Assembly (NCBI RefSeq): GCF_038396635.1
Contig: NZ_CP121687.1
Location: 1,054,001 to 1,118,000, forward strand
Length of the DNA stretch: 64,000 bases
Reading direction: 5' to 3'
From: Defluviitalea saccharophila
Lineage (GTDB): Bacteria; Bacillota; Clostridia; Lachnospirales; Defluviitaleaceae
Shown here: positions 30,897 through 46,756 of the stretch, piece after piece
Layout of the letters: the number at the start of each line of letters is the position of its first letter
Numbering within the stretch: the stretch's first letter is position 1
Program-made: the position numbers and the translations under genes
Notes under the pieces: model-generated
Databases searched by the model: none
Seen by the model: only the letters and a program-made list of their open reading frames with translations
Told to the model about the DNA's origin: nothing

Positions 30897-31595
30897 TTAT
30901 TCTTCAATTTCTTCCTTCAATCTCCTGATGTCTTTTATAATAATGTTTTTACCATCCATGTCGATCAACTTTTTCTTTTTTAACTGACTCATCGCCCGGC
31001 TTGCCGTTTCCCTTGTCGTTCCGACAATATTGGCTATATCCTGCCTTGTCATTCCCAGATTAATTTCGATACCTTTAGGTGTGTCTTTTCCATACTCTTT
31101 TGCAAGATTGATCAATACTTTTGCAGTTCTTATATAGGTGTCATTTAAAGCGATTTCTTTTACGTTCATTTGAGAATAATAAAGTCGTTTGCTCAATACT
31201 TTTATAATCTGTAATGCCAGTTCTCTGTTTTCTAATACCATCTTTTCTATGTCTCGATTATAAATCATTCCAACTTCAGCATCTTCAATCACTTCTGCCG
31301 TAGCAGGATATTCTATGTCATTAAACATGGTGACTTCAGCTAAAATTGCTCCTTCTCCAAAAATATTCAGGATGATTTCTCTTCCATCAAAAGATGTTTT
31401 ATACACTTTTATCTTGCCCGATTGAATATAGAAAAAGGACTCTCCTTTATCCCCCTCATTAAAGATAATTGAGCCTTTTGGATATTCTTTTTTTATTTCT
31501 AATTGGCTGATTTTTTTTAGCTGCTCCTCCGACATGCCGGAGAAAACAGGAATTCTTTTTAAGGCAGCAATGTGCTTCTCCACTATATCCCTCAT
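30897..31595 (-). CDS. CRP/FNR-family transcriptional regulator (HcpR-like candidate)
   Basis: 232 residues: a cyclic-nucleotide-type beta-barrel (residues about 15-125), dimer helix and a winged helix-turn-helix (about 183-207, TRQDIANIVGTTRETASRAMSQL). The recognition helix carries Arg195-Glu196...Arg200, the same RE---R pattern with which E. coli CRP reads TGTGA. There is no cysteine, so no FNR-type iron-sulfur cluster, and the Arg-Ser of the cAMP pocket is replaced by Pro-Ala, so cAMP is unlikely. It is divergent from the hybrid-cluster-associated operon, and matching TGTGA sites precede several stress genes nearby. I infer an HcpR-like nitrosative/redox sensor; the ligand is unknown. Confidence 0.88.
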   Translation of the reverse strand: MRDIVEKHIAALKRIPVFSGMSEEQLKKISQLEIKKEYPKGSIIFNEGDKGESFFYIQSGKIKVYKTSFDGREIILNIFGEGAILAEVTMFNDIEYPATAEVIEDAEVGMIYNRDIEKMVLENRELALQIIKVLSKRLYYSQMNVKEIALNDTYIRTAKVLINLAKEYGKDTPKGIEINLGMTRQDIANIVGTTRETASRAMSQLKKKKLIDMDGKNIIIKDIRRLKEEIEE

Positions 31596-31616: not shown

Positions 31617-31659
31617 TGTGATTAATGTCATATTCAAGTATTCCTATATATTTTATAAT
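31617..31659 (+). promoter_or_regulatory. CRP-type operator and promoter of the 31692 operon
   Basis: TGTGATTAATGTCATA (31617-31632), then 21 bp, then a perfect TATAAT (31654-31659). The operator centre falls near -41.5, a class II activator position. The same site lies just upstream of the divergent regulator gene and could mediate autorepression. Confidence 0.75.
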
Positions 31660-31691
31660 AAATCTATCAATGGTGACAAGGAGGATTTATT

Positions 31692-32351
31692 ATGAGTGCA
31701 TTTTTAGGGCCTATACATTATTGGCTATACAATAAAATTACTTTATTTGAAGAATTAGAAAGAGCTTTAGTAGAAAGTTATACGAATCAATATGGCGAAT
31801 CAATTACTGATATTTTTCAAAAATACTGCGATCAATATGGTGATCCGATTCCGGCCAATGAACCTTTAGAAAATATTATTGATCAGAGCAATATTCATGG
31901 CTGGCTTCAATACAAAATCAGTATTGCAGAAACACGTCAAGCGGCTTTTCTAAATGAAATATTAAATACCTATGGAGATGAGGCTTTACAATTGGCTTTA
32001 AATACATATTACAATCAAGGAGAATCGACAGGCAGGAAAAGTCAATCTACGGAGGCACCTTCTTCTGCTCCTGAACTATTTAAAGCTTTGAATAACTATA
32101 TTTTAGATGGGATGCCCTGTGATCGTGTCAATGAAATCATCGTGTCTGAAGAAGATCGTTTTGAATGGAATACGGTGTCCTGCCTTCATATAGGATACTG
32201 GAATGCCGCAGGGGCGAACCCCGATACATTCTATACTCTAAGAAAACAATGGATCTCTGCATTTATAGAAAATGCAAATTCTGACTATAAATATGAATTT
32301 GAGAAAACCTCACATTCATTATCTCATAAAATATTAAAAGGAGGAAGATAA
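31692..32351 (+). CDS. Hypothetical protein co-transcribed with a hybrid-cluster-associated CxxC protein
   Basis: I do not recognise this 219-residue protein. It starts [23 protein letters not shown] and is predicted soluble and mostly helical. A Ser/Thr/Gly-rich linker at about 112-127 separates two halves. The second half has a distinctive [32 protein letters not shown], with one Cys in each of two short motifs and a conserved-looking His. AAGGAGG precedes the ATG. The next gene begins one base after its stop, so they form an operon driven by the CRP-type promoter. Context suggests a role with the hybrid cluster protein or nitrosative stress; function is unknown. Confidence 0.75.
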
Positions 32352-32352
32352 T

Positions 32353-32538
32353 ATGACAATTACAAAGGATATGCTAATTTCAGAAATTTTAAGAATTAAC
32401 CCCAATGCGGCCAGAATTTTAATGGGCAGCGGAATGGGATGCCTCGGATGTCCTTCATCTCAAGCTGAATCCTTAGAACAGGCAGCTGCCGTTCATGGCA
32501 TTAATGTGGATGAACTGCTAGAAAAATTAAATCAATAA
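32353..32538 (+). CDS. Hybrid-cluster-protein-associated redox disulfide protein (DUF1858)
   Basis: A 61-residue protein ([50 protein letters not shown]...) of the DUF1858 type. CLGC forms a probable redox disulfide at the start of a helix. The family is regularly found fused to or beside the hybrid cluster protein (prismane), which is encoded 4.5 kb away and shares the operator. It starts one base after the preceding stop, with GGAGGAAG just before the ATG. Confidence 0.92.
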
Positions 32539-32545
32539 AACAAGT

Positions 32546-32582
32546 AAGGATTATAGACTTACCCCCTAAGTCTATAATCCTT
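32546..32582. terminator. Bidirectional terminator between the DUF1858 gene and the symporter gene
   Basis: A 16-bp stem AAGGATTATAGACTTA / TAAGTCTATAATCCTT with a 5-C loop and T6. It serves convergent transcripts. Confidence 0.93.
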
Positions 32583-32592
32583 TTTTCAATTA

Positions 32593-34077
32593 TTATTCCA
32601 TTGTTGCTTCCCCAAAAGCTTCTTGAATCAGAGATGTATTCATTTCTTTACCTAAAAGACTCGCTAAGGGTACGGTAACACTGGATACGATCATAGCAAG
32701 ACAAGAAACAATCGGCATATCAATTAAAAGTATACCTAGTCTCTCTAAGATCAAATACCCTCCTATCACAATGCCTCCGCCTAAAAATCCTGCCCAAGCC
32801 CCAAGTTTTGTAGTTTTTTTCCACCATATTCCCCAGATATAAGGACCAAGGAACATTCCGGATACAATACCCCAGGATAAAGACATAAGATAAACAATCG
32901 TATTGGATTGGAATACAGCCATGACATAGGATAAAGCAACAAATAATGCACAAAAGACTTTCATTATACCCATAGTCTTTTGATCGGATAAATCCGGTCT
33001 TACATACCCCTTTATAAAATCTATAGTAATTGTTGAACTGGAAACAAGTACTAAGGCTGCAAGGGTTGACATGGAGGCTGAGAGAATCAATACGATAATG
33101 ATGCCTAATAAAGCATCCGGCAGTGCTTTTTCTAACATAAGGGGAATAATCATATCGGCATTGCCCTGGGGCATCACTGCAACTCCGTCTTCGATAAAAA
33201 ACAGTCTTCCCAGGGAACCTGTAAAATAAGCACTAACCCCTATGACAAATGCAAAAAGAGTAGAAATAATGGTTCCTTTTTTAATCGCATCTTCATCTTT
33301 AACCGCATAAAATTTGTGAATCATTTGAGGTAAACCCCATACACCGAAACTGGTCATAAAAATTAAACTCATGAGTGATAGTCTTCTGCCCGAATCACTA
33401 AAAGTCATACCAAGTCCCGGATCAAGAGCAGATAATTTGGTAAGTGCCTGGCTAAAACCGCCCACTACATCATTATTAACTACAAAAATGACCATTAGTA
33501 TACTGCCTATTAACATAATAATTCCTTGAATAAAGTCATTGATTGCTGTTGCTACATAGCCCCCTAAGAGAAGGTAAAAGGCTGTAAGTATAGCCATACC
33601 TAAAATAACGGTATTAAAACTTATACCAAAGGAACTCTCAAAAATATATCCTAAGCCTTTATATACTGAAGCTGTATAAGGTACTAAAAATACAAACATT
33701 ATAAGTGCTGCAATAAACTTCATATTCTTGCTTTGGTATCTTTTTTCAAAAAACTCCGGCATCGTACGAACGTCCAAATTATGGGTCATATCCCGAGTTT
33801 TCTTAGCCAGCAGCTTCCATGCAAGCCAACAGCCAAATACTGCATTGCCGATACCAATCCAAGATGCTGATACTCCAAATTTCCAACCTAATCCTCCAGC
33901 ATAGCCAATAAAAATTACTGCTGAAAAATATGAAGTTCCATAGGCAAAGGCACTCATCCATGCCCCCATGTTTCTTCCCCCAAGGAAAAAATCATTGGTA
34001 TCTTTGACCTTCTTATTGCTGTAAAGGCCTACTCCAATCATCACGCCAATAAACACCAATAAAAACAATACTTTCAT
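32593..34077 (-). CDS. Sodium:solute symporter (SSS family), possibly for tyrosine
   Basis: A 494-residue protein with about thirteen membrane segments. It carries the SSS opening DTNDFFLGGRNMGAWMSAFAYGTSYFSAVIFIGYAGG, GGYVATAINDFIQGIIM and VLILSASMSTLAALVLVSSSTITID. Proteins of this family bring amino acids, sugars or vitamins in with Na+. Its T-box leader means the substrate is most likely the amino acid that charges the sensed tRNA; the specifier appears to be TAC (Tyr). Closest named relatives would be the proline or pantothenate symporters, but those names should not be transferred. The gene stands alone. Confidence 0.88.
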   Translation of the reverse strand: MKVLFLLVFIGVMIGVGLYSNKKVKDTNDFFLGGRNMGAWMSAFAYGTSYFSAVIFIGYAGGLGWKFGVSASWIGIGNAVFGCWLAWKLLAKKTRDMTHNLDVRTMPEFFEKRYQSKNMKFIAALIMFVFLVPYTASVYKGLGYIFESSFGISFNTVILGMAILTAFYLLLGGYVATAINDFIQGIIMLIGSILMVIFVVNNDVVGGFSQALTKLSALDPGLGMTFSDSGRRLSLMSLIFMTSFGVWGLPQMIHKFYAVKDEDAIKKGTIISTLFAFVIGVSAYFTGSLGRLFFIEDGVAVMPQGNADMIIPLMLEKALPDALLGIIIVLILSASMSTLAALVLVSSSTITIDFIKGYVRPDLSDQKTMGIMKVFCALFVALSYVMAVFQSNTIVYLMSLSWGIVSGMFLGPYIWGIWWKKTTKLGAWAGFLGGGIVIGGYLILERLGILLIDMPIVSCLAMIVSSVTVPLASLLGKEMNTSLIQEAFGEATME

Positions 34078-34126
34078 TGACTCACATCCCCCTTTAAAAA
34101 TTTAATTGATTATTTTTTTGCAAATA

Positions 34127-34415
34127 AAAAACTCCCGTCCTTATCATAAGGACGAGAGATATTTCCCGCGGTACCACCTTAATTTATTATTGCTTCACAG
34201 CAATAACCTCTTCAAGTACGCCAAAACAATCCTTTTGGGATACTCTATCACTATAACGGGTGAGCCCGGCTTCCTCTACTGGCATATCTTAATATGCGTT
34301 CAAGCAAACACTCTGAGATGTATTCAAATTAATCCGCTTTGCCCCTTTCACCAACCGGGTGCTCTCTGTAAAAGCTTACTTAATTTTACTTCTTCTCATC
34401 AACGCTTTACTACTT
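34127..34415 (-). promoter_or_regulatory. T-box leader of the sodium symporter gene, specifier probably TAC (Tyr)
   Basis: Antiterminator AAGGTGGTACCGCGGG (34165-34180) and terminator stem CTCTCGTCCTTA/TAAGGACGGGAG with T6 (34126-34158). In Stem I, AAATTAA pairs with TTAATTT; the loop below has AGTA on the 5' side and GAA-TAC-A on the 3' side. By the same geometry as in the leuA leader, where GAA-CTC gives Leu, the specifier is TAC at 34320-34322. Confidence 0.92.
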
Positions 34416-34429
34416 TATTCCTTTATTGT

Positions 34430-34458
34430 ATTTTATGATTTATTTTAAATATTGTCAA
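34430..34458 (-). promoter_or_regulatory. Promoter of the symporter T-box transcript
   Basis: Minus-strand perfect TTGACA (34453-34458), 17 bp, TAAAAT (34430-34435), just upstream of Stem I. Confidence 0.8.
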
Positions 34459-34490
34459 TAGTATAATATATATTATATATTAGAAAATTA

Positions 34491-35957
34491 TTATTGAAAA
34501 TCTTTATCTAAGTTAATAACGATTGCCTTCGACCTTGTCATGGCTTCGATACTGTATCGGATTCCCTGAGTGCCTAATCCAGATGCTTTTACACCAAGGA
34601 ATGGGAAGTGGTCAGGACCTCTCTCTGTTTTATTATTAATTTGGACGGTTCCAACTTCTAATTTCTGTGCAATCGCAAAGGCCTTATCAATATTTTTAGT
34701 AAATACACAGCCTTGAAGTCCGTATTCTGATCTGTTCGATATATCAATGGCTTCTTCAATAGTTTTTACTCTGATAATTGGCAGCACAGGGCCAAAAGGT
34801 TCTTCCCATGCAATTCTCATATCTTCAGTAACATGATCAAACACGGTAGGCCAGATGTATCTTTTTTCTCGCTTATTTCCTATAAGGAGTTTAGCACCTT
34901 TTTGGATGGCATCGTCAATTAATTCCTGTACAAAATCTGCTGCTTTATCATTAATTAAAGGGGTAATTTGCGCATCGTCTTCAGGTCTGCCCACTGTAAG
35001 CTTTGCTACCTCGGCAACGATTTTAGAAGCCAGTTCATCAGCGATACTATCCATTAACAATACTCTTTTAACAGCAGTACATCTTTGACCGGAATAATTG
35101 AAGGCTCCTTTAACGATATTTTGAGCGGTTTCATCCAGGTCACAATCTTCCAGTACAATGGCAGCGTCCTTGCCTCCAAGTTCCAATAACAAAGGAATCA
35201 TTCCCGCTTCTTTTGCAATGTGATGACCAATCTCCGTACTGCCTGTAAAATTAATCATATCAATACCGGGGTGCGTAATTAAATAATCTCCGATCTCTGA
35301 GCCTTTTCCTGTTACAATATTTAATACCCCTGGTGGAAGTCCGGCTTCACAAAAGATTTGTCCCAGATACATTGCACTGATAGAACCCTGGGTCGGCGGT
35401 TTAAATACAACGCTGTTTCCTCCTACCAAAGCCGGCGCAATCTTGGATATGGATAAGTTAACAGGATAATTAAAAGGAGCAATGCATAATATTACCCCTA
35501 AAGGTACTCTTTCTACAAGAGATATTTTGGTTTTATCAAACCCCGGGAAAGCATCTCCGTAAATCGTTTCACCGGTCATTCTTTTAGCGGTTTCTGCCGT
35601 AAAATGCATAAAATCAACGGTTCGCTTTACTTCAGATATGGCTGAACTTTTGGCTTTAGCGATTTCTTTAACTAAAACATCCGCAATTTCTTCTTCGTAT
35701 TTTTCCATAATTCTTGCTGCTTTGTGAATGATATTTGCTCTTTCACTAATCGGTATCTTTGCCCATTCCTTCTGTGCATCTTTGGCATTTTGTACAGCAA
35801 AATCGACATCCTCTTTAGTTTGTGCTTGTATTTCCCCAATTAAAGAGTCATCTACCGGAGAGTAAATTTGAATTCTTTCTCCTGCCGATGATTCTGTCCA
35901 CTGTCCACCACATAAATTTTTATATATATTTCCTTCTCTGAAAATGCATGAAAACAT
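34491..35957 (-). CDS. gapN: NADP-dependent non-phosphorylating glyceraldehyde-3-phosphate dehydrogenase
   Basis: A 488-residue aldehyde dehydrogenase. Catalytic residues are Cys293 (YSGQRCTAVKRVL), Glu259 (LLLELGGKDAAIV) and Asn163 (APFNYPVNLS). The terminal RGPDHFPFLGVKASGLGTQGI and YSIEAMTRSKAIV are typical of GapN rather than general aldehyde dehydrogenases. GapN oxidises glyceraldehyde-3-phosphate straight to 3-phosphoglycerate, yielding NADPH but no ATP. GAGGTGATTTT precedes the ATG. The gene is divergent from zupT; a CRP-type site lies in the shared gap, 20 bp from a TATAAT directed at gapN. Confidence 0.92.
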   Translation of the reverse strand: MFSCIFREGNIYKNLCGGQWTESSAGERIQIYSPVDDSLIGEIQAQTKEDVDFAVQNAKDAQKEWAKIPISERANIIHKAARIMEKYEEEIADVLVKEIAKAKSSAISEVKRTVDFMHFTAETAKRMTGETIYGDAFPGFDKTKISLVERVPLGVILCIAPFNYPVNLSISKIAPALVGGNSVVFKPPTQGSISAMYLGQIFCEAGLPPGVLNIVTGKGSEIGDYLITHPGIDMINFTGSTEIGHHIAKEAGMIPLLLELGGKDAAIVLEDCDLDETAQNIVKGAFNYSGQRCTAVKRVLLMDSIADELASKIVAEVAKLTVGRPEDDAQITPLINDKAADFVQELIDDAIQKGAKLLIGNKREKRYIWPTVFDHVTEDMRIAWEEPFGPVLPIIRVKTIEEAIDISNRSEYGLQGCVFTKNIDKAFAIAQKLEVGTVQINNKTERGPDHFPFLGVKASGLGTQGIRYSIEAMTRSKAIVINLDKDFQ

Positions 35958-36082
35958 AAAATCACCTCTTTGGCATTATACTTTAATTTAAATACAAATA
36001 TATCATATTATGTATTAACTACTATATGATAATTATTATTGATTTTTTACTTTTTTTATTTTAATATACAATTGTATCCCTA

Positions 36083-36124
36083 ATTATATTAACTTTTTTT
36101 AAAAATACTATGATTAGAATCACA
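36083..36124 (-). promoter_or_regulatory. CRP-type site with -10 box facing gapN (weaker case)
   Basis: On the minus strand TGTGATTCTAATCATA (36109-36124) is followed after 20 bp by TATAAT (36083-36088). This is one base shorter than the 21 bp at the better sites. The palindrome also lies 28 bp before the zupT start, so it could affect that gene instead. Confidence 0.45.
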
Positions 36125-36151
36125 ATTTTTAATTTGAAAGAGGGTAATTGA

Positions 36152-36961
36152 ATGAATCTAAATAATATACTGATTGCTTTCGGACTCACTTTATTCGCTG
36201 GTCTTTCTACAGGAATCGGAAGTCTACTGGCATTTTTCACAAAGAAAACCAATACAAAATTCCTTTCTGTCAGTTTAGGGTTCTCTGCTGGAGTGATGAT
36301 TTATGTATCCATGATAGAAATCTTTGTGAAAGCAAAGGACTCTTTAGTTGCCGCTTTAGGAAATGCAAAGGGTTCATGGGTTACCGTAATCGGATTTTTT
36401 GGTGGCATGTTTCTTATTGCACTAATAGATACCTTTATTCCTTCATCTGAAAATCCCCATGAGATGTACAAAGTAGAAGATATAAATGAGAGTAATCCTC
36501 CTAACCAGAAAAGCCTGCTTCGTACCGGTATTTTTACCGCCCTGGTAATTGCAATACACAATTTCCCCGAAGGTCTTGCAACTTTTACGGCTGCCTTAAA
36601 AGATCCTTCCCTTGGAATTCCTATAGCAGTAGCGATTGCTATTCACAATATTCCTGAAGGTATTGCGGTATCCGTACCGATTTTCTATGCCACAGGGGAC
36701 AGAAAGAAAGCATTCAGGTATTCCTTTTTATCAGGTCTTTCAGAACCCTTGGGAGCCTTGGTAGGCTATATGCTTTTATCTTCGCTATTTAATGATATTA
36801 CCTTTGGAATATTGTTCGCAGCTGTGGCAGGGATTATGGTGTATATATCCTTAGACGAACTTCTTCCTGCTGCTGAAGAATACGGAGAACATCATCTGTC
36901 CATATACGGTGTTGTGGCAGGAATGATCGTAATGGCTATTAGTTTACTATTATTTGTATAA
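36152..36961 (+). CDS. zupT: ZIP-family metal transporter (ZupT-like)
   Basis: A 269-residue protein with eight membrane segments. Helices IV and V carry the metal-binding [10 protein letters not shown] and [12 protein letters not shown] motifs of the ZupT/GufA branch. A hydrophilic cytoplasmic loop lies near residues 97-125. It imports divalent cations such as zinc, iron or manganese; the sequence does not settle which. AAAGAGGG stands before the ATG. It is divergent from gapN and is followed by a bidirectional terminator. Confidence 0.93.
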
Positions 36962-37017
36962 TCAAAAGTATTTTTTCACCAGTGCCTCAAAAATATTCTA
37001 TAAAGTATGTAATAAAA

Positions 37018-37060
37018 AACCCCTTCGCTCCAATCCAATGGAGATCAAACGAAGGGGTTT
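37018..37060. terminator. Bidirectional terminator between zupT and hcp
   Basis: Outer stem AACCCCTTCG/CGAAGGGGTT with an inner CTCC/GGAG stem. A- and T-runs on both sides lie between convergent genes. Confidence 0.88.
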
Positions 37061-37094
37061 ATACTTGTTAGTCTAAATTATGCTGTTTTAAATC

Positions 37095-38735
37095 TTATCC
37101 TAAAAACATTTTTAAATCGTCTTCTACGTTTGTGATACCGCCGATTCCGAAGTTTTCTACTAATACCTTTGCAACATTTGGAGAAAGGAATGCTGGAAGG
37201 GTTGGTCCTAAGTGGATATTTTTCACTCCAAGGTATAATAATGCAAGAAGTACAATAACCGCTTTTTGTTCATACCATGCGATATTATAGGAAATTGGAA
37301 GCTCATTGATATCGTTTAATTCAAATACTTCTTTTAATTTAAGCGCAATTACCGCAAGGGAATAAGAGTCATTACATTGTCCGGCATCAAGAACTCTTGG
37401 AATGCCACCTATATCTCCTAATTCCAGTTTGTTGTATTTATATTTTGCACATCCTGCTGTTAAAATCACTGTATCTTTTGGAAGTGCTTTTGCAAAATCT
37501 GTATAGTAATCTCTGCTCTTCATTCTTCCGTCACAGCCAGCCATAACGAAGAAACGTTTAATAGCTCCTGACTTAACTGCTTCTACTACTTTATCTGCAA
37601 GAGAAAGCACTGTGTTATGAGCAAATCCTCCAACAATTTCTCCTCTTTCAATTTCTGTAGGTGGTGCACATTTCTTTGCGTGTTCAATGATCTCAGAGAA
37701 ATCTTTTCCGTCTTTTCCATCAGGAATATGTTTTAAGCCTTCAAAGCCTACGGAACCTGTTGTATATACTCTGTCTTTATAGGAATCTTTTGGTGGAACA
37801 AGACAGTTGGTTGTCATTAAAATAGGTCCATTGAATTTTTCAAATTCTTCATTTTGTTTCCACCATGCATTACCGTAGTTACCTACAAAATGATCATATT
37901 TTTTGAATGCCGGATAGTAGTTTGCAGGAAGCATTTCACTATGAGTATATACATCTACTCCAGTACCTTCTGTTTGCTTAAGCAATTCTTCCATATCTTT
38001 TAAATCATGACCACTTATTAAGATACCTGGATTATTTCTTACTCCGATATTAACTTTTGTAATTTCAGGATGTCCATAGGTGGAAGTATTCGCTTTGTCT
38101 AAAAGTGCCATTACATCTACCCCATGTTTTCCTGTTTCCATGGTTAATGCAATTAAATCTTGGGCAGACAAGCTGTCATCTAAGGTTGCAGCTAATGCTT
38201 TTTGAAGGAAAGCATGAATATTATTGTCTTCATAGCCTAAATTTAATGCGTGTTTTCCATACGCAGCCATTCCTTTTAACCCGTATGTAATGAGTTCTCT
38301 TAAGGAACGAACATCTTCATTTTCTGTAGCTAAGATACCTACAGTTTCTGCCTTCTTGTCAAACTCTGCTTCATCCAATGTAAAGAGAGCTGCATCATGG
38401 GTGATCTGTTCAACATTTCCTCCTGCATTAAGCACTTCTTGCTTTAATGCTTCACGAACTTCTAATGCTTTATTAATACGTTTAATAAAATCTGCTCTGT
38501 CGAAGTTTGCATTTGTAATTGTAGCAAATAAATTCTCCATAATGAATTTATTCACTGCTTGGTTTTCTACTCCTACTTTTCTTCCTTCAGTAGCATACAT
38601 AGAAATTCCTTTAAGTGTATAAATTAATAAGTCTTGAAGATTAGACACATCTGCAGTCTTTCCACATACCCCTCTTAAAGTACATCCGCTTCCTTTTGCT
38701 GTTTCTTGACATTGATAACAAAACATATTTGACAT
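37095..38735 (-). CDS. hcp: Hybrid cluster protein (hydroxylamine reductase), class I
   Basis: 546 residues. The N-terminal cysteines C6-x2-C9-x8-C18-x5-C24 ([19 protein letters not shown]) bind the [4Fe-4S] cluster and mark class I, the form of strict anaerobes. Hybrid-cluster ligands lie in the C-terminal half ([38 protein letters not shown]). The enzyme reduces nitric oxide or hydroxylamine and protects against nitrosative stress in the cytoplasm. Its promoter has a CRP-type site at -41.5, shared in sequence and geometry with the nearby CxxC operon and the flavodiiron gene. Monocistronic; RBS GAGGGAGGACAAA. Confidence 0.97.
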
Positions 38736-38803
38736 ATTTTGTCCTCCCTCGTAAATTTATTTTATATTATTCATACATGTTTAGTATGTTTTTTCTTAAG
38801 TAT

Positions 38804-38846
38804 ATAATAGAGGATTTTGGGTGTTAAATCAGTGATTTATATCACA
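38804..38846 (-). promoter_or_regulatory. CRP-type operator and promoter of hcp
   Basis: Minus strand: TGTGATATAAATCACT (38831-38846), 21 bp, TATTAT (38804-38809). The operator is a near-perfect palindrome and its spacing to the -10 equals that at 31617-31659 to the base. The -35 is poor, as expected for an activated promoter. Confidence 0.8.
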
Positions 38847-38881
38847 AGTTAAAAAAAGATAAAAGAATTTAAAAAAACAAA

Positions 38882-38909
38882 AAGTGATGCACCTAGAGGT
38901 ACATCACTT
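38882..38909 (-). terminator. Terminator of the phosphofructokinase gene
   Basis: AAGTGATGtACCT against AGGTgCATCACTT with a tiny loop, followed on the minus strand by TTTTGTTTTTTT. Confidence 0.88.
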
Positions 38910-38920
38910 AGTAAAATACC

Positions 38921-40159
38921 CTACTCGCAGGCTCTTTCTCTTAAATTGTGTAAAATCTTTGGCGCCTTCGGTGCTCTAATTCTATGAGCTGCCGGGAACC
39001 CTGAGCCAACCAAAGGGCGGGCATAGAATTTAAAGGCATCCGTTACATTGTTTCCTGCCGCGTTGATAAATTCATCAGGCATAACCTTTGTTTTTCCTGC
39101 AATCTCTTCTAATTTTCTTAGTTCATAGTTAACCGAATAAAAGCCTGTTCTTTGAATGGTGATTGAACCATCTACATTATACCAGATGGCATATTGAGCA
39201 GCTTTTTCTCCTACTTCTCTTGCTTCATATTGGTCAATATCAGAAACACAACCCATAAATGAACGCTGCAAATATCCTAATGTATCTGAGCGAACCCTGC
39301 TTATATTTAACTTTGTTTTAACCTGATCAGCAAGCAAGTCTCCTAACGCCCCTGTTCCGGAAAGCTGAACATTTCCGTGGGCATCTTTTTCAATATTTTC
39401 TTTTAATTTAGTAATAATAGGCGTACCATTTTCATCTTGTATACCTTCAGATACAGCAACTACACATCTTCCGTATTTATTATATACTTCTTTTACATCC
39501 ATTAAAAATCTATCAAGATCAAATGCTCTTTCAGGAAGATAAATGAGATGAGGACCGTCATCTGGATACTTTTGTGCCAAGGCTGCGGCAGCCGTTAAGA
39601 ATCCTGCATGTCTTCCCATAACAACGCCGATATAAATCCCTGGAAGAGCCCTATTATCTAAATTAGCTCCCATAAATGCCTGCGCAACAAATCTGGCAGC
39701 AGAACCATAGCCTGGAGTATGGTCATTAAGTACTAAGTCATTATCAATTGTCTTGGGAATATGTATTGCCCTGAATTCATAGTCTGATTTTTTCGCATTT
39801 TCATTTACTATACGAACTGTGTCGGCAGAATCATTTCCGCCAATATAGAAAAAATATCTTACATCATGGGCCTTCAAAACATTAAATATTTCTTTGCAGT
39901 ATTTTTCATCCGGTTTGTCTCTTGTAGAAAGCAATGCAGAAGAAGGTGTTCTTGCTACTTGTTCTAAATTATTTGTTGTTTCCTGTGTCAAATCTACAAA
40001 GTCTTCATTAATAATTCCCGCTACGCCGTTTACTGCTCCATATACTTTTGTAATCTGTTGAAACTTTCGAGATTCCAGTACAACACCTACAAGAGACTGA
40101 TTAATAACAGCGGTGGGACCTCCACCTTGTGCAACCACTACTTTTCCTTCCAGTTTCAT
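38921..40159 (-). CDS. pfp: Pyrophosphate-type 6-phosphofructokinase
   Basis: A 412-residue phosphofructokinase. It has the N-terminal AQGGGPTAVINQSL, then IGGNDSADT at 106-114, IPKTIDNDL and VMGRHAGFLTAA. Asp110 in GGND replaces the Gly of the ATP enzyme's GGDGS motif, the residue change that marks PPi as phosphoryl donor; the length also fits the long PPi type. The reaction is reversible, serving glycolysis and gluconeogenesis. The ATG at 40159 is chosen because AAGGGTGATTGAT precedes it; the frame stays open 25 codons further upstream. Confidence 0.9.
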   Translation of the reverse strand: MKLEGKVVVAQGGGPTAVINQSLVGVVLESRKFQQITKVYGAVNGVAGIINEDFVDLTQETTNNLEQVARTPSSALLSTRDKPDEKYCKEIFNVLKAHDVRYFFYIGGNDSADTVRIVNENAKKSDYEFRAIHIPKTIDNDLVLNDHTPGYGSAARFVAQAFMGANLDNRALPGIYIGVVMGRHAGFLTAAAALAQKYPDDGPHLIYLPERAFDLDRFLMDVKEVYNKYGRCVVAVSEGIQDENGTPIITKLKENIEKDAHGNVQLSGTGALGDLLADQVKTKLNISRVRSDTLGYLQRSFMGCVSDIDQYEAREVGEKAAQYAIWYNVDGSITIQRTGFYSVNYELRKLEEIAGKTKVMPDEFINAAGNNVTDAFKFYARPLVGSGFPAAHRIRAPKAPKILHNLRERACE

Positions 40160-40317
40160 ATCAATCACCCTTCTCATCATCATATTGAAGATATACTGTA
40201 TTGTTATTATAACAAATACATAGAAAATTTGCATTTACTTTTTAGAAATTTATGATTATTATATATTATTAACAAAATATAAAATAAATAATCAGTTTTA
40301 ATGATTAATAAAAATTA

Positions 40318-40336
40318 ACTCTTCAAATTGAAGAGT
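40318..40336 (-). terminator. Terminator of the C39-like gene
   Basis: ACTCTTC/GAAGAGT stem with a 5-nt loop overlapping the stop codon, followed on the minus strand by TAATTTTTATT. Confidence 0.6.
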
Positions 40337-41229
40337 CATTTTTTAATATAAGTAATCGCCTGCCTGCCCATCTGCACCCAAGCCTTACTAAAATCTTTTA
40401 TTGGTACTTTTTGATTTGCTTTAGTTTTTAAGGGATTATTGATATAAACATAGTCTTTATCATATCCAGTTAAGAGAACAGAATGCTCTTTCATCGTAAT
40501 ACGAATTGGACCGTATCGGGTATACCATACCTGAAAGTAATTATCACCTAATTCTTTAAAACTGCCATTGGTGATCACCCATACAGGGGTCCCGGCATTA
40601 ATAAAATATAATACATCGTTCCACTGGCATCCTGTCAAATCGATCACTCTTCCAGGCAAATATTTTTCCGCTAATGCCTTAATCGGTTTATGGTATACGC
40701 CATAGCCTTTGTTTTTAAAACTATAAATATCTCCTACAAAGCCTACATTAGGATGCCCATAATATATCTTTCCATTCTCTTCTCTATAGGGCGTTGTATC
40801 TTTTTTTATTTCTTTTGCAAGAGTCATTTTATTGACTTTTGCCCCTGCGTGTCTAAGCATCATCGCAAGACTGGTCACTTCACAACCTCTCGCTAATTCC
40901 GGCATTTGAGAAATCATAGGTACTTTTAAAATCACACGGGGTCTAAGTTTAGCGGAATTCGTCCAAACAAGTGTTTTGTTATTATAATAATATATAGAAA
41001 TATTTTTATATTTCCTGGCAAAACTAACAGCTTCGGTGAAAGTCGTAAAAGAATCTAAATACTTTTTTTGCTGACATACGGCAAAAGGTCTTTCCTTACT
41101 CCAAAGCTGCTGTGTGTTATTGACCGGAACTTTATTATCCTCTTCTTTAATATTGTATAATGTAAAAACAAATAAAAAAATCACAAGAAATGCCAGGCCT
41201 ATTTTAATGCTCCTCTTCATTTCTTTCAT
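40336..41229 (-). CDS. Membrane-anchored C39-like (YvpB-type) peptidase
   Basis: 297 residues. A single N-terminal membrane segment (IGLAFLVIFLFVFTLYNI) leaves the rest outside. The catalytic domain begins at about 103 with VPMISQMPELARGCEVTSLAMMLRHAG, which holds the Gln and nucleophile Cys of the papain-like C39_2 family. The His lies in KEHSVLLTGYDKDYVYINNP, with Asn as third residue. The segment before it (ERPFAVCQQKKYLDSFTTFTEAVSFARKY) is typical of YvpB relatives. Substrate unknown; likely cell-wall or surface processing. The ATG at 41220 is another possible start. Confidence 0.83.
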   Translation of the reverse strand: MKEMKRSIKIGLAFLVIFLFVFTLYNIKEEDNKVPVNNTQQLWSKERPFAVCQQKKYLDSFTTFTEAVSFARKYKNISIYYYNNKTLVWTNSAKLRPRVILKVPMISQMPELARGCEVTSLAMMLRHAGAKVNKMTLAKEIKKDTTPYREENGKIYYGHPNVGFVGDIYSFKNKGYGVYHKPIKALAEKYLPGRVIDLTGCQWNDVLYFINAGTPVWVITNGSFKELGDNYFQVWYTRYGPIRITMKEHSVLLTGYDKDYVYINNPLKTKANQKVPIKDFSKAWVQMGRQAITYIKK

Positions 41230-41273
41230 CCCTATTTTATTCGTTGATACATTATACTTTTTAAGTTCCGATT

Positions 41274-41915
41274 TTATTCTTCGGAACCTGTTTCTTCTAA
41301 AGATGACCCTTCTTTTTCAGGCATATATTTAACTAAAATCTTTTCAATAAAATAAGCAGCTGAAATTGCATAAAGACTTACCGCTACAAATATAAAAATA
41401 GATGCTACCCAGGTTATAAAAAGGGTTGCCACGAATAGCAATATGCATATGATGGTTGTGAGCAAATGTCTATTGGCTACAAAAAAAGCCATTTTTATTG
41501 CCCCAGCAATGGTCAGATAAAATCTGGACAAAAGAGGGAATATATAAATACTTATAAAAATCATCTGCAGCAAAATAGCATACTGAAACACCACCAGTGC
41601 TTTACCCATGCTTCCGAATAAATGAGAGCTGTTTAAATTAAACCGAGCGATGGAAAAAACAATAAGCATAAGGAGCCAAATAATTGTAGATTGCCTGAAA
41701 TTCAATTTAAAGCTTTTCCAAAAATCTCTCCATATATACCCGTCTTCATTTCTTATTTTTTTCCCAAGAACATAAAAAAGTGCTGTCGTAGATGCACCTA
41801 CTGTAAAAATAGGAATACTAAAAATAAACCATAAAAGATTTAAAGCGATCATATCAAAAGCAAAGGTTCCAAAACGATTAAAAGGTCCGTCTAAATCAAA
41901 AAATCCTTTAAACAT
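41274..41915 (-). CDS. DUF624 / YesL-like membrane protein
   Basis: 213 residues with about five or six membrane segments. The start MFKGFFDLDGPFNRFGTFAFDMIALNLLWFIFSIPIFTVGASTTALFYV is the hallmark of the YesL family. The function is not established; many relatives lie beside carbohydrate uptake genes, but none is adjacent here. The ATG at 41915 has GGAGGAAACTACT before it; the longer reading from 41957 is less likely. The C-terminal tail is acidic and cytoplasmic. Confidence 0.87.
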   Translation of the reverse strand: MFKGFFDLDGPFNRFGTFAFDMIALNLLWFIFSIPIFTVGASTTALFYVLGKKIRNEDGYIWRDFWKSFKLNFRQSTIIWLLMLIVFSIARFNLNSSHLFGSMGKALVVFQYAILLQMIFISIYIFPLLSRFYLTIAGAIKMAFFVANRHLLTTIICILLFVATLFITWVASIFIFVAVSLYAISAAYFIEKILVKYMPEKEGSSLEETGSEE

Positions 41916-41997
41916 AGTAGTTTCCTCCATAAAATCAACATTATGTCTTATCATCATATTAAAATATTAGATTGATTTGCAAACCGTTTTCTGCAAG

Positions 41998-44121
41998 CTA
42001 TAATCTGTTTACATTAATCAATTCTACTGCTCCGTTGCCATCGGGTTTAAACTGTACATCCGCCGTAGCTTTTTCATGGGTTTGAGGAAGAATAATGTTA
42101 ATCCCTTTTATTTTCTTATTCTTTAGCAGTTCCTTAACCATCTTTGAGGTAATGGCTTGTCCATATTGTTCCAGACTATTCTTCCAAAGGGTAAATTTAC
42201 ACCCTGCATTCCATTCGCTGCAATAGAATGCCCTTGTATTTTCTTTGATATCCCCTTTATTACATAAAGGGCATTTCCCCAGTACTCCTGATTTTTTAGT
42301 CGTTTTCTTTTTGGCTTCCGCAGGAAAAGCAATGGGATGGTCTAATTTTGAGGACTCCTCAACAATGAAATAAACATATCTGATGATGCTTTGCATAAAT
42401 TTTTTAGGATCCATCTTGCTTTTTACGATGGATGAAAGCCCCTTTTCCCATTTGCCTGTGGTTTCTGGAGACTTTAGTTCCTGTGGGACAATCTCAATTA
42501 ATTTCATTCCCTTTTCTGTAGGGTAAAGTGCCTTTCCTTTTCTAATCACATACCCGACTTGAATAAGCCTCTCTATAATAGAAGCTCTTGTTGCAGGAGT
42601 TCCAAGTCCGCTGTCCTTGAGTTGCTCTTTTAACTCCTCATCTTCTACCAGTCGTCCGGCATTCTCCATGGCAGATAATAAAGTGGCCTCCGTATAAGGT
42701 TTTGGGGGAGAGGTCTTTTTCTTTTCGGTTTTTACATCCATAACTGTGACCGGATCTTCCTTTTTTAAAACAGGCAGTTCCTGCTCTTCTTCGTTCTTTT
42801 TGGCATCATTTTTATAAAACAGCATCCATCCTAATTGGGAAACCATTTTACCCTTGGTAATAAAATGTTCATTTTCTATTTCCGTAATGACTTTTGTGAT
42901 GGTATATTCATAATCGGGATAAAACACAGCAAAAAATCGTTTGACAATTAAACCATAAATTTTCTTTTCATCCTCTGTCAGCCTTTCCAGCTTGGGAAGC
43001 GAATCCGTTGGAATAATGGCATAATGGTCCGTTACCTTACTGTCGTCAACAATTCTTTTGGATATAGGAAGGTCTCCCCTATCTAAAATCGGTTGAACGA
43101 ATCTGCTGTATACAGGAATATTTAATTTATGAAGCGTACTCTTTAAAACAGGTATCATATCCGTACTGACATAACGGCTGTCGGTTCTTGGGTAGGTGAT
43201 CATCTTTCGCTTTTCATATAAATCTTGGGCAATGGATAAGGTCTTGCTGGCAGAAAATCCAAACATTTTGTTTCCGTCTCTTTGAAGCTCCGTTAAATCA
43301 TATAAAAGAGGCGGAGCCTGTTTTTTCTTTTCTTGGGATAGATCCTTAATGATCCCACTCTTACCCTTTACTTTATCTGCGATTTTTAAAGCTTTTTCTT
43401 CTTCAAAAATTTTCGTTTCATTGTTCTTTAAATCAATCCAGGTCCCCTTAAATCCATTAAAATCTGCTTTTACTTCCCAGTAGTCCTTTGGAACAAATTC
43501 ATCAATTTCCTTTTGCCTTTGCACCAAAATGCTTAAGGTTGGAGTCTGCACCCTGCCGATAGATAAAAGGACATTGTACCTGATACTAAAGGCACGGCTT
43601 GCATTCATACCCACCAGCCAATCTGCCTCCGAACGGCATTTTGCAGAATGATAAAGGGCATCATATTCTTCGCCTGGCTTTAAGGTTTCAAAACCTTTCT
43701 TTATTGCAGAATCGGTCATACTGGAAATCCAAAGCCTTTTAAAAGGCTTTTTGCATTTAACCGCTTCATAAATATATCTAAAAATCAGTTCCCCTTCTCT
43801 TCCGCTGTCCGTCGCACAGATAAGATAATCTATTTCTTTAGAATTCATAAGTTTTTTTAAAATATCAAACTGCTTTTTGGTTTTCCTCTCCGGCTTGGTT
43901 TTCATTTGTTCCGGAATAATCGGAAGGGTTTCATAGGACCATCGTTTATATTTCACATCATATTCTTCCGGTGTTAAAAGTCTAACCAGATGGCCTATCG
44001 CCCAGGTTACTATATACTTTTCTCCTATAAGGCAGCCCTCACCTTTTTCTTTGCATTCTAAAACCTTGGCAATGTCTTTGCCTACAGAGGGCTTTTCCGC
44101 AATAACTAAAATCTTTCCCAT
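41998..44121 (-). CDS. topB: DNA topoisomerase III (type IA)
   Basis: About 707 residues. The Toprim domain is at the N-terminus (ILVIAEKPSVGKDIAKVL, then ICATDSGREGELIFRYIY). The nucleophilic tyrosine lies in MITYPRTDSRYVSTDM, and LSIGRVQTPTLSILV and TLLSAMENAGRL follow the TopB pattern. At the end is one zinc-finger-like CPLCNKG...FYCSEWNAGC repeat. The enzyme relaxes and decatenates DNA. The ATG at 44121 is preferred because AAAGGATGAATTCA gives better spacing than the ATG three codons earlier. Confidence 0.94.
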   Translation of the reverse strand: MGKILVIAEKPSVGKDIAKVLECKEKGEGCLIGEKYIVTWAIGHLVRLLTPEEYDVKYKRWSYETLPIIPEQMKTKPERKTKKQFDILKKLMNSKEIDYLICATDSGREGELIFRYIYEAVKCKKPFKRLWISSMTDSAIKKGFETLKPGEEYDALYHSAKCRSEADWLVGMNASRAFSIRYNVLLSIGRVQTPTLSILVQRQKEIDEFVPKDYWEVKADFNGFKGTWIDLKNNETKIFEEEKALKIADKVKGKSGIIKDLSQEKKKQAPPLLYDLTELQRDGNKMFGFSASKTLSIAQDLYEKRKMITYPRTDSRYVSTDMIPVLKSTLHKLNIPVYSRFVQPILDRGDLPISKRIVDDSKVTDHYAIIPTDSLPKLERLTEDEKKIYGLIVKRFFAVFYPDYEYTITKVITEIENEHFITKGKMVSQLGWMLFYKNDAKKNEEEQELPVLKKEDPVTVMDVKTEKKKTSPPKPYTEATLLSAMENAGRLVEDEELKEQLKDSGLGTPATRASIIERLIQVGYVIRKGKALYPTEKGMKLIEIVPQELKSPETTGKWEKGLSSIVKSKMDPKKFMQSIIRYVYFIVEESSKLDHPIAFPAEAKKKTTKKSGVLGKCPLCNKGDIKENTRAFYCSEWNAGCKFTLWKNSLEQYGQAITSKMVKELLKNKKIKGINIILPQTHEKATADVQFKPDGNGAVELINVNRL

Positions 44122-44180
44122 TGAATTCATCCTTTAAAGATTACTTTTATCTTATTTTATCATAAGAATGACAAGAATGC

Positions 44181-44219
44181 GACTACGTCGCACTTTTGAA
44201 CTTAGAAAGTTTGGTCTCC
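44181..44219 (-). repeat. Dispersed repeat, copy B (partial)
   Basis: GACTACGTCGCACTTTTGAA followed by a TAGAAAGTTTGGTCTCC stretch. It shares the GACT..G.CGCACT..TGAA block with copies C and D, and the AGAAAGTTTGGTC half-palindrome with copy A. It lies directly downstream of a minus-strand terminator, like the other copies. Confidence 0.65.
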
Positions 44220-44232
44220 ATAAAAAGATAAA

Positions 44233-44263
44233 GTCCTCTTGCCGTTATCTTCGGCAAGAGGAC
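44233..44263 (-). terminator. Terminator of the flavodiiron gene
   Basis: A 12-bp perfect stem GTCCTCTTGCCG/CGGCAAGAGGAC followed on the minus strand by TTTATCTTTTT. Confidence 0.88.
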
Positions 44264-44279
44264 TGATCATATAGTCTTA

Positions 44280-45506
44280 TTAGTGGGTTAATACTTGTTC
44301 TCCAAAAATCTTTCCAGCTTCTTGAGCAATGTTTAAACCTGCTTCATTGGAGAATTTTATTCTAAGAGGAAAGGCTGGGCTATCTATTCCTCTATTGAGG
44401 ATGAGATATTTTTGGGTAACTACAGTGAATCCGGAATCATTTAGATAATTTTCAATATGGGTAATGCCTTCTCCGCTCCAGCCAAAAGAACCGAAGGCGG
44501 CTGCGAATTTTCCGCTTGCATCCACATCTTTTAGAGCTTGAAGCAATTCTTCAACATTGCCTACCATATCTCCATATTTTGTTGAACTTCCAATTAAAAC
44601 ACCATCGGAGATTTTAATTCTATCTAAAACTTCATCTAAGTTTGAATTCTTTAAGTTAAATACATAGGGCTCAATACCAACTTCCTTAAGGCCTTCCGCT
44701 AATTTACCTGCAATTTTGCTCGTATTGCCTGTCATTGTTGAGAAGACAATCGTTACCTTCTTTGAACTTGCAGAATCTCCTAAGCTGCTCATTTCATCGT
44801 ACATTCTGATAAAATCATTTACATTTTCTCTTAATATATAGCCATGGGATGGAGCAATGATCTCAATCTCCAAGTTACTGATTTTCTTTAGCATATCACG
44901 GACATATGGTCTGTGGGGTGCCATAATGAGTTGATAATAAACTTTGAAATCTTCAATATACTCCCCTTGAGCCAAGTCATTAAAGAGTTCCGTATTTGCT
45001 ATATGGGTACTGAAGATATCGCAGGGGAATAAAGCTTTGTCTTCAATGCTGTAAGTAACCATTGTTTCTTCCGTATGAAGATAAGGGGTTTCAAAAAATT
45101 GAAGGGTTTTTCCGCCTATGTCTAATTTGTCTCCGTCATGAACAATAACAAATTCACGATTATGAAGCTTAAACATATCTTTTAAAAGTTCGCTGCCTAT
45201 TTGTGTTGCAACAATTTTTGCATTCTTTGCTCTGGCTGCCAACGCTGGAAGTGCTCCTGCATGATCCGGCTCAACATGGTTAATAACGATATATTCAATG
45301 GTATTCAAGTCAATATGTTCACTTAGGCGATCCACATATTCTTTTGCAAAAGCAATGTCTACCGTATCGATTACCGTTGGCTTTTCAGTTGTTAAAAGAT
45401 AGCTGTTGTAGGTTGTCCCTCTCTCAAGAATCAGTCTATGAAACGGTACTTTTCTATCGTCATTTTTACCTACCCAAAATACATTATCAGTTATTTTATT
45501 CATCAT
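44280..45506 (-). CDS. fprA: Flavodiiron protein (FprA-type NO/O2 reductase)
   Basis: 408 residues. The N-terminal metallo-beta-lactamase-like domain holds the diiron ligands His77, Glu79, Asp81, His82 (NHVEPDHAG), His144, Asp163 (FPCDIFS) and His221 (PSHGYI). The C-terminal flavodoxin domain starts near 250, with FMN loop STMTGNT (256-262). Such proteins reduce oxygen to water or nitric oxide to nitrous oxide in anaerobes, taking electrons from rubredoxin, which is not encoded nearby. The promoter carries the same operator and spacing as hcp, which favours a role in NO or oxygen defence. Confidence 0.95.
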   Translation of the reverse strand: MMNKITDNVFWVGKNDDRKVPFHRLILERGTTYNSYLLTTEKPTVIDTVDIAFAKEYVDRLSEHIDLNTIEYIVINHVEPDHAGALPALAARAKNAKIVATQIGSELLKDMFKLHNREFVIVHDGDKLDIGGKTLQFFETPYLHTEETMVTYSIEDKALFPCDIFSTHIANTELFNDLAQGEYIEDFKVYYQLIMAPHRPYVRDMLKKISNLEIEIIAPSHGYILRENVNDFIRMYDEMSSLGDSASSKKVTIVFSTMTGNTSKIAGKLAEGLKEVGIEPYVFNLKNSNLDEVLDRIKISDGVLIGSSTKYGDMVGNVEELLQALKDVDASGKFAAAFGSFGWSGEGITHIENYLNDSGFTVVTQKYLILNRGIDSPAFPLRIKFSNEAGLNIAQEAGKIFGEQVLTH

Positions 45507-45585
45507 ATATATCCCTCCATAAATTTTTTACTTATTTTAAATGAGATGAACTTCTGAAGTTTGTGCGTTCCTCTCTGATGGTTCA

Positions 45586-45628
45586 ATGATACTATATTTA
45601 TGGAGAGAAAACTGTGACTCGACTCATG
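45586..45628 (-). promoter_or_regulatory. CRP-type operator and promoter of the flavodiiron gene
   Basis: Minus strand: CATGAGTCGAGTCACA (45613-45628), 21 bp, TATCAT (45586-45591). One half-site (TGTGA) is perfect and the other (TCATG) is weaker. The spacing to the -10 is identical to that at hcp. Confidence 0.65.
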
Positions 45629-45666: not shown

Positions 45667-45686
45667 AACTGGTTTATAAACCAGTT
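45667..45686 (-). terminator. Terminator of the chemoreceptor gene
   Basis: A 20-bp palindrome aactggtttataaaccagtt, followed on the minus strand by TTTGTTTTTTT. It includes the stop codon. Confidence 0.85.
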
Positions 45687-46713: not shown

Positions 46714-46756
46714 ATACTACTAAAAAGAAATTTTTAAAACTATGATTCGAATCACA
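46714..46756 (-). promoter_or_regulatory. CRP-type site with a weak -10 facing the chemoreceptor gene
   Basis: TGTGATTCGAATCATA (46741-46756), part of an 18-bp near-perfect palindrome, is followed after 21 bp by TAGTAT (46714-46719). It lies between the stop of the upstream gene and that gene's terminator hairpin, so the start site would overlap the hairpin. The case is weaker than for hcp. Confidence 0.45.

Follow-up and report, generated by a model that had tools for sequence, protein, structure and literature searches.

The question raised by this locus, a 64,000-bp stretch of the Defluviitalea saccharophila chromosome (G000:C1:1054001-1118000 of a single-contig genome of 3,014,560 bases; the whole stretch is called the window below), is whether three CRP/FNR-type dyads at the same distance from a -10 box put their genes under one control and, if so, which protein reads them and in response to what. 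The dyads stand ahead of an operon formed by a gene at 31692 and a DUF1858 gene, ahead of hcp, which encodes the hybrid cluster protein, and ahead of a flavodiiron gene. A preliminary description had assigned them to a local regulon under the CRP/FNR-family protein encoded at 30897-31595 (regulator 1), with nitric oxide (NO) or redox sensing as in HcpR; our analysis supports this interpretation in part. We consider it probable that these dyads serve as class II operators in a nitrosative-stress regulon that extends across the genome in the family Defluviitaleaceae, and that they are read by CRP/FNR regulators with an RE---R recognition helix. The features are listed below in window coordinates, and genomes and loci are cited by their working labels (G and L numbers).

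30897-31595, minus strand: CRP/FNR-family regulator 1, 232 aa, with Pfam domains cNMP_binding and HTH_Crp_2
31617-31632, plus strand: operator of the 31692/DUF1858 operon, TGTGATTAATGTCATA, centre at -41.5
31654-31659, plus strand: -10 box TATAAT of the 31692 operon, 21 bp after the operator
31692-32351, plus strand: predicted helical protein of unassigned family, 219 aa, first gene of the operon
32353-32538, plus strand: DUF1858 / TIGR03980 hybrid-cluster-protein-associated redox disulfide protein, 61 aa (Pfam/NCBIfam)
37095-38735, minus strand: hcp, hybrid cluster protein, 546 aa (NF003658 / TIGR01703, above cut-off)
38804-38809, minus strand: -10 box TATTAT of hcp, 21 bp after the operator
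38831-38846, minus strand: operator of hcp, TGTGATATAAATCACT
44280-45506, minus strand: flavodiiron protein, 408 aa, with ODP beta-lactamase and flavodoxin domains (family search)
45586-45591, minus strand: -10 box TATCAT of the flavodiiron gene, 21 bp after the operator
45613-45628, minus strand: operator of the flavodiiron gene, CATGAGTCGAGTCACA

The three dyads, their 21-bp gaps and their -10 boxes are present as described. With the -10 hexamer placed at -12 to -7, a 16-bp site that ends 21 bp upstream occupies -49 to -34, so its centre falls at -41.5, and the earlier estimate of a class II position, a placement also used by E. coli CRP and FNR, holds relative to the predicted -10 boxes. 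The form TGTGA-N6-TCAyn, given for all three sites, fits the 31692 and hcp operators but not the flavodiiron operator, which read towards its gene is CATGA-N6-TCACA, with the TGTGA half on the other strand. Two further operators of the window were absent from the preliminary description:

34491-35957, minus strand: aldehyde dehydrogenase, 488 aa (Pfam Aldedh)
36083-36088, minus strand: -10 box TATAAT of the aldehyde dehydrogenase gene, 20 bp after the operator
36109-36124, minus strand: operator of the aldehyde dehydrogenase gene, TGTGATTCTAATCATA
45674-46624, minus strand: MCP signalling-domain protein, 316 aa (Pfam MCPsignal only)
46714-46719, minus strand: weak -10 box TAGTAT of the MCP gene, 21 bp after the operator
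46741-46756, minus strand: operator of the MCP gene, TGTGATTCGAATCATA

Across the ten promoters collected in this work, the best -35 match at 16-18 bp spacing reaches 1 to 3 of 6 positions, and such a weak -35 element together with a site at -41.5 has the look of an activator-dependent class II promoter.

The geometry, rather than the dyad, sets these promoters apart from the background. The strict pattern TGTGA-N6-TCA-N2-N(20-22)-TATNAT matches the window three times (31692 operon, hcp and aldehyde dehydrogenase; the flavodiiron orientation does not fit), and 295 of 300 dinucleotide shuffles contain no match and five contain one. A looser form (TGTGA or TCACA half, a gap of exactly 21, TA...T) has four window matches, by position those of the 31692 operon, hcp, the flavodiiron gene and the MCP gene, against 278 shuffles with none, 21 with one and one with two. 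The genome-wide scan suggested in the preliminary description, with motif, gap (20-22) and TATnAT combined, gave six matches and none in the reversed controls. The flavodiiron orientation gave two matches genome-wide (one coding) against two in the controls. Taken alone this is not significant, and the case for the flavodiiron site comes from its conservation. The bare 15-mer is unspecific: of its 39 genome rows, 27 lie in coding open reading frames and two at reading frame starts; the other 10 are intergenic and represent nine sites, one of them matched on both strands. With one mismatch allowed it occurs 36 times in the window against a shuffle mean of 25, a count that 3 of 100 shuffles reach. 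Five of the six perfect TGTGA-N6-TCAY words of the window are intergenic, and the sixth (59063) is coding.

We compared eight genomes of the family (G000, its same-species assembly G057, and G001-G006). When the gap is varied from 8 to 38 bp, 27 of 69 matches fall at 21 bp, six at 20 and one at 22, against an average of 1.4 per gap for the 30 gaps other than 21; leaving the same-species genome out, 22 of 58 still fall at 21 bp. The family contains 34 geometry matches, of which 30 were examined as loci. Three of these are coding (two in G005, one in G002) and were taken as noise; 23 of the 27 intergenic ones lie directly ahead of an orthologue of a regulon gene, and the remaining four precede a formate/nitrite transporter gene in G003 and an MCP unit with an inserted gene in G001, lie at a contig edge in G002, or are unexplained (G004). 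By a hand tally over the order, the eight family genomes have 34 matches against six controls and the 138 other genomes have 80 against 46; the geometry excess within the order is confined to Defluviitaleaceae. At individual promoters, the 31692 box is kept ahead of the orthologous gene in G057, G001, G002, G003 and G005 (the operon is absent at the corresponding place in G006, and in G004 the contig ends there), and the flavodiiron box stands at 21 bp in G057, G002 and G005, and also in G001, where its left half is changed to TATGC. G057, G002 and G005 carry the aldehyde dehydrogenase box, and the MCP box is followed by N21-TATGAT in G001 and by N21-TATTAT in G002.

Contrary to the earlier claim, the regulon is not local: four or more further promoters are found outside the window. 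The box with its 21-bp gap stands ahead of a hemerythrin gene (1038535), pflBA (1744197) and a DUF2249 gene (2272502), and a box at 1134060, 21 bp from TATTCT, precedes ric-DUF1858-DUF438. The sequence comparisons suggest a regulon that seems genome-wide, with about ten promoters and at least four outside the window; there is nonetheless local enrichment, with five of the ten (a doubtful DUF454 promoter included) within 15.1 kb, a value of ~1e-5 under a uniform model. The DUF438, DUF2249 and DUF1858 families are associated with nitrosative stress. Likewise, hcp, ric and NO-reducing flavodiiron genes are members of published nitrosative-stress regulons, according to the available text of the sources (PMC1274295, PMC9268430). 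In G027 and G040, flavodiiron, HHE, DUF1858, 31692-homologue and hemerythrin genes form one cluster behind a single TGTGA box, and in G000 the flavodiiron, 31692/DUF1858 and hemerythrin genes occupy three loci, each with its own box; the single-box cluster is an independent sign that these genes belong together. The targets thus point to NO or nitrite stress, and the proposed NO/redox theme is strengthened by ric, DUF438, DUF2249, hemerythrin and the formate/nitrite transporter of D. phaphyphila. In this last genome (G003, L263:1131-1898), the box stands 21 bp ahead of the transporter gene, which is followed by a 4Fe-4S dicluster protein gene, possibly a nitrite-linked unit. In G003 the ric match (L224) extends over residues 3-147 only, out of 230, within an open frame of 153, and this gene may be truncated or frame-broken.

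Regulator 1 belongs to the CRP/FNR superfamily, with PF00027 and PF13545 above their gathering scores, and the traits ascribed to it earlier were all recovered. Its recognition helix RETASR supplies R180, E181 and R185 of CRP. It is free of cysteine in G000, G001, G003, L135 and L136, the single Cys of the G004 row lying upstream of the likely start, and hence lacks the FNR-type cluster cysteines. The Arg82-Ser83 pair of the cyclic AMP (cAMP) pocket is replaced by Tyr-Pro in 13 aligned regulator-1-type rows, and the single His (residue 8) is Arg in G004. Lacking Cys and Arg-Ser, regulator 1 is not expected to hold an Fe-S cluster by its own cysteines or to bind cAMP in the CRP style, and without a conserved His there is no heme ligand to propose; NO or nitrite as its signal is suggested by the targets. 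Orthologues at 68-100% occur in all seven other Defluviitaleaceae genomes searched, including D. phaphyphila Alg1 (G003, 76%); the other matches are metagenome-assembled genomes (MAGs) labelled Candidatus Epulonipiscium. In G005 a frame change near an A-run interrupts the gene (L067:10371-11059), which is otherwise well conserved; this may be a sequencing error or a recent loss. The rows of G006 and G005, whose stretches contain stops, were excluded from the regulator alignment and from the search profile built on it. In the window the regulator 1 gene lies 5.5 kb from hcp, and its start codon is 21 bp from the end of the 31617-31632 operator, on the opposite strand.

Regulator 1 is one of four CRP/FNR proteins found in the genome with the window regulator as query. 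The paralogue of most concern is the following:

G000:C1:1134081-1134794: regulator 2, with FNR-like cysteines, 33% to regulator 1, just upstream of ric

Regulator 2 has cysteines at positions 6, 8, 11, 16, 114 and 140, and its helix, RETVSR, carries the same R180, E181 and R185. All five proteins of this type that were examined have three or four N-terminal cysteines and a central one. The third CRP/FNR protein (L070:1030-1716 = G000:C1:2222829-2223515) has Thr181 and groups with HcpR2-type proteins, and the fourth lacks the RE---R pattern. The third gene is divergent, by eye, from genes of a cupin-like and a membrane protein.

Since regulators 1 and 2 share the three specificity residues, sequence alone cannot tell which of them binds where, and the assignment draws on the co-occurrence of boxes and regulators across genomes. 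G004 and G006 have regulator 1, no regulator 2 match above 39% and no ric match, yet CGTGA-N6-TCACG stands ahead of hcp; the two assemblies are 91% and 85% complete, so gene absence in them is uncertain. Beyond the family, a regulator 1 relative (57%) adjoins hcp in L135 (a Clostridium MAG), where the hcp promoter has TGTGATGCATATCACA, 21 bp and TAAAAT; in G450 a relative lies near a DUF1858 gene behind TGTGATATTTATCATT, 21 bp and TATACT; and in G348 TGTGATATTCATCACT stands ahead of a DUF1858 gene near another relative. Conversely, regulator 2 or a relative (37-68%) occurs in seven genomes (G098, G138, G009, G122, G106, G040 and G114); these have no closer regulator 1 match, carry a TGA-N6-TCAC box at 21 bp before ric and show no such box at hcp; in G041 the ric promoter is cut off at a contig end. 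By this co-occurrence hcp and DUF1858 go with regulator 1 and ric with regulator 2, so that hcp and the 31692/DUF1858 operon are best given to regulator 1 and ric to its paralogue. Of the three sites that regulator 1 was earlier said to read, genome comparison ties those of hcp and 31692 to it, but the flavodiiron site is not tied to it in this way and an RE---R paralogue exists. The flavodiiron box resembles the ric box in its weak left half and TCACA right half, and could belong to either regulator.

The shared recognition residues also allow a different reading, namely that regulator 2 reads every box as a sensor of anaerobiosis or NO and regulator 1 is incidental. The cysteines of regulator 2, the position of its gene directly upstream of the boxed ric operon, and the presence of pflBA in the regulon, which suits an anaerobic activator, agree with this. 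However, G004 and G006 keep the hcp box and regulator 1, though no protein in them matches regulator 2 above 39%. In G098 and G138, where regulator 2 is present (68%) and regulator 1 is missing, ric is boxed but hcp has an HcpR2-like box. We consider sole control by regulator 2 unlikely.

At hcp the comparison extends to a second type of operator. We scanned 320 bp ahead of hcp in the seven family relatives and in 13 outside genomes, the latter picked for having CRP/FNR matches, not at random, and tested over 250 bp against 200 shuffles each. All seven relatives have a T/CGTGA-N6-TCAC box with a -10-like hexamer at 21 bp (4 of 6 positions only in G004) and no GTAAC-type box above 7/10, so that with G000 all eight family genomes have a TGTGA- or CGTGA-type box at hcp. 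In contrast, 12 of the 13 outside genomes have a box like GTAAC-N4-GTTAC, the HcpR2 consensus (in the available text of PMC1274295), exactly 21 bp before a -10 hexamer of at least 5 of 6. It scores 10/10 in G020, G009, G027 and G040, 9/10 in G041, G106 and G122, 8/10 in G098, G138, G072 and G130 (in G072 and G130 other gaps also score 8), and 7/10 in G114; per genome, 0 to 2 of 200 shuffles reach the observed score. No such box was found at hcp in G013 (two copies) or at the second, distant hcp copies of G020 and G040. Altered half-sites (GTATC, GTAGC) occur at hcp in G098, G138, G072, G130 and G114 (L204, L203, L207, L205 and L202, respectively), the position staying fixed at 21 bp as the half-site drifts by lineage. 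HcpR2-like boxes outside and TGTGA-type boxes inside the family, at the same 21 bp, suggest that the regulator was swapped and the geometry kept. The simplest reading is that regulator 1 displaced HcpR2 at hcp in Defluviitaleaceae and that the box was altered without being moved; the genome still encodes an HcpR2-branch protein (Thr181).

One might instead regard regulator 1 as an HcpR2 protein whose half-site preference has changed, given its common target hcp, its place beside hcp in L135 and the same -41.5 placement. In a tree of 25 CRP/FNR rows, however, the HcpR2-type proteins of G009 and G027 (Pro181), the former encoded directly upstream of hcp, and the third G000 protein (Thr181) form a separate branch (95/90 support, long branches). 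HcpR2 membership of regulator 1 was rejected on this position and on Glu181, and the idea of a modified HcpR2 is improbable. The likeness to HcpR drawn in the preliminary description thus applies to the role, and the protein itself lies outside the HcpR2 branch of this small tree.

Another candidate reader of the boxes is Rex, an NADH-sensing repressor: its dyad, TTGTGAAnnnnTTCACAA, matches them in half-site and spacing, with the TGTGA-N6-TCACA core in common, and pflBA and aldehyde dehydrogenase are plausible targets for it. In the ten promoters, however, the left TGA is followed by T, C or G, never by A, the right TCA is preceded by A or G, never by T, and a repressor would need neither a fixed 21-bp gap nor a missing -35 element. 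Rex, itself not searched for in the genome, was rejected on the inner bases and the geometry, and this origin of the boxes is very improbable. Chance, that is, the picking of three CRP-like dyads common in A+T-rich DNA, draws on the counts of the bare and one-mismatch 15-mer and is ruled out by the genome controls, shuffles, phasing and family conservation, so that we give it scarcely any credence.

In the mechanism that we propose for the nitrosative-stress regulon, an RE---R CRP/FNR dimer would bind TGTGATtnnaATCAyA and assist RNA polymerase where a promoter offers a -10 box without a usable -35 element. Two paralogues could read the box: regulator 1 would activate hcp, the 31692/DUF1858 operon and probably most other members, and regulator 2 the ric-DUF1858-DUF438 operon beside its own gene and possibly the flavodiiron gene. 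Through the box that closely precedes its gene, regulator 1 would be able to limit its own synthesis, and at hcp regulator 1 would have taken over from an HcpR2-type regulator, with the place of the box unchanged. A bolder version makes regulator 1 an activator responsive to NO or nitrite, devoid of Cys and of conserved His, with a sensing chemistry unlike that of HcpR, DNR, CooA and FNR; it would share its operator with an Fe-S paralogue and have displaced HcpR2 by a half-site change from GTAAC to GTGAT at an unchanged -41.5. This version we put forward only tentatively, and we doubt that all of its parts will hold.

Several observations weigh against the proposed regulon or its assignment, beside the recognition residues common to both paralogues. 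The box at 96777 and the DUF454-gene box at 1343518 are doubtful and fit the theme poorly. The aldehyde dehydrogenase box was not seen in G001, G003 and G006, and no box precedes the flavodiiron paralogues (37%) of G003, G004 and G006. The G348 DUF1858 box has no -10 hexamer at 20-22 bp in the scan, and G072 and G130, although they encode a regulator-2-type protein (35%), lack a good box ahead of ric. Relatives of regulator 1 at ~50% in family f45 stand beside non-nitrosative genes (by eye, of phosphate-transport type and trmB-like) with no such box, pflBA lies near a relative in two of three f65 genomes with no good box found, and a CO dehydrogenase gene was confirmed as neighbour of the relative in G450. 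From these neighbours, the ancestral signal need not have been NO. In G348 (L300; the G450 locus is L301) a like CO dehydrogenase gene lies, by eye, near the relative, followed by the DUF1858 gene behind its TGTGA box.

CRP/FNR control of hcp and TGTGA boxes ahead of hcp are already known, and it is useful to compare the present system with those described. HcpR2 of Clostridia, Thermotogales and Bacteroides (PMC1274295; C. difficile hcpR, PMC12915319) is, in the available text, a CRP/FNR-family hcp activator of strict anaerobes under nitrosative stress, like regulator 1, and the HcpR2-like hcp box of related genomes is also 21 bp from the -10 box. HcpR2 has Pro181 (or Ser, Gln) and GTAAC-N4-GTTAC in the accessible part of PMC1274295, unlike the Glu181 and TGTGA-N6-TCAYA of regulator 1, and the regulon here, with ric, flavodiiron, hemerythrin, DUF2249, pflBA and MCP genes, is wider. 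In the case of Desulfovibrio HcpR (HcpR1), compared by description only, Arg180/Glu181 and a CRP-like hcp box, wTGTGAnnnnnnTCACAw, are as here, and the partner genes mentioned in the same portion of PMC1274295 include frdX and sulfate-reduction genes, unlike here; the Desulfamplus relative of regulator 1 (35%) has Pro180. Crp2 of Thermoanaerobacter tengcongensis, which its source treats as orthologous to B. subtilis fnr and which we liken by description only, has a CRP-like hcp site in a Firmicute, as here (PMC1274295, in part). Heme-based NO sensing with Met68 as the likely ligand is described in the available text for P. gingivalis HcpR (PMC12750200), which is alike in its hcp role, but regulator 1 offers no heme ligand to propose. 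With E. coli CRP and FNR the fold is common; regulator 1 shares RE---R with CRP and regulator 2 an FNR-like cysteine cluster, but regulator 1 has no cysteine and no cAMP Arg-Ser.

Our literature search found no paper joining DUF1858 with the hybrid cluster protein, Rex with hcp, or flavodiiron proteins with CRP/FNR, and the titles listed for Defluviitalea and nitric oxide included no regulatory study; on class II promoters it yielded one paper, which was not relevant. What is added here is a probable regulon of about ten promoters in Defluviitaleaceae, a paralogue with cysteines that is expected to recognise the same box, and an apparent regulator swap in nature, with HcpR2-like and TGTGA boxes at an identical distance from the -10 box. 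If regulator 1 does sense NO, a mechanism other than an Fe-S cluster on its own cysteines or a His-bound heme would be needed.

The conserved orphan protein encoded at 31692 is now placed among nitrosative-stress genes. No Pfam or NCBIfam family matches it at E 0.001, and relaxing the limit to E 10 brings up weak matches only. In six family genomes including G000 the box precedes its orthologue, and homologues (37-39%) occur in the NO-type clusters of G027 and G040, so this company suggests a part in nitrosative stress. Seven sequences of this type share conserved His, Trp and two Cys positions. A structural model built from three sequences is helical (mean pLDDT 72.5); Foldseek gave no match to it at E 0.001, and VIA-align gave helical-bundle matches up to Z 6.8, mostly over residues 1-100. 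H-NOX (Z 4.6; another by Foldseek at E 1.4) and clam hemoglobin (Foldseek E 1.3) do not stand out among these, and nothing was concluded from them.

Some minor features accompany the window operators. The aldehyde dehydrogenase operator is also 28 bp ahead of the zupT start on the opposite strand (36109-36152), where activation from -41.5 is impossible. The flavodiiron box occurs at two contig ends of G057 (G057:C90:3378 and G057:C238:24), probably an assembly overlap. In G001 (L062:6623-7078) a transposase-like gene, of IS200 type by eye, is inserted between the boxed promoter and the MCP gene. A PNPOx-type gene (46759-47259) ends just ahead of the MCP operator, and its orthologue lies by the box in G001 and G002 as well.

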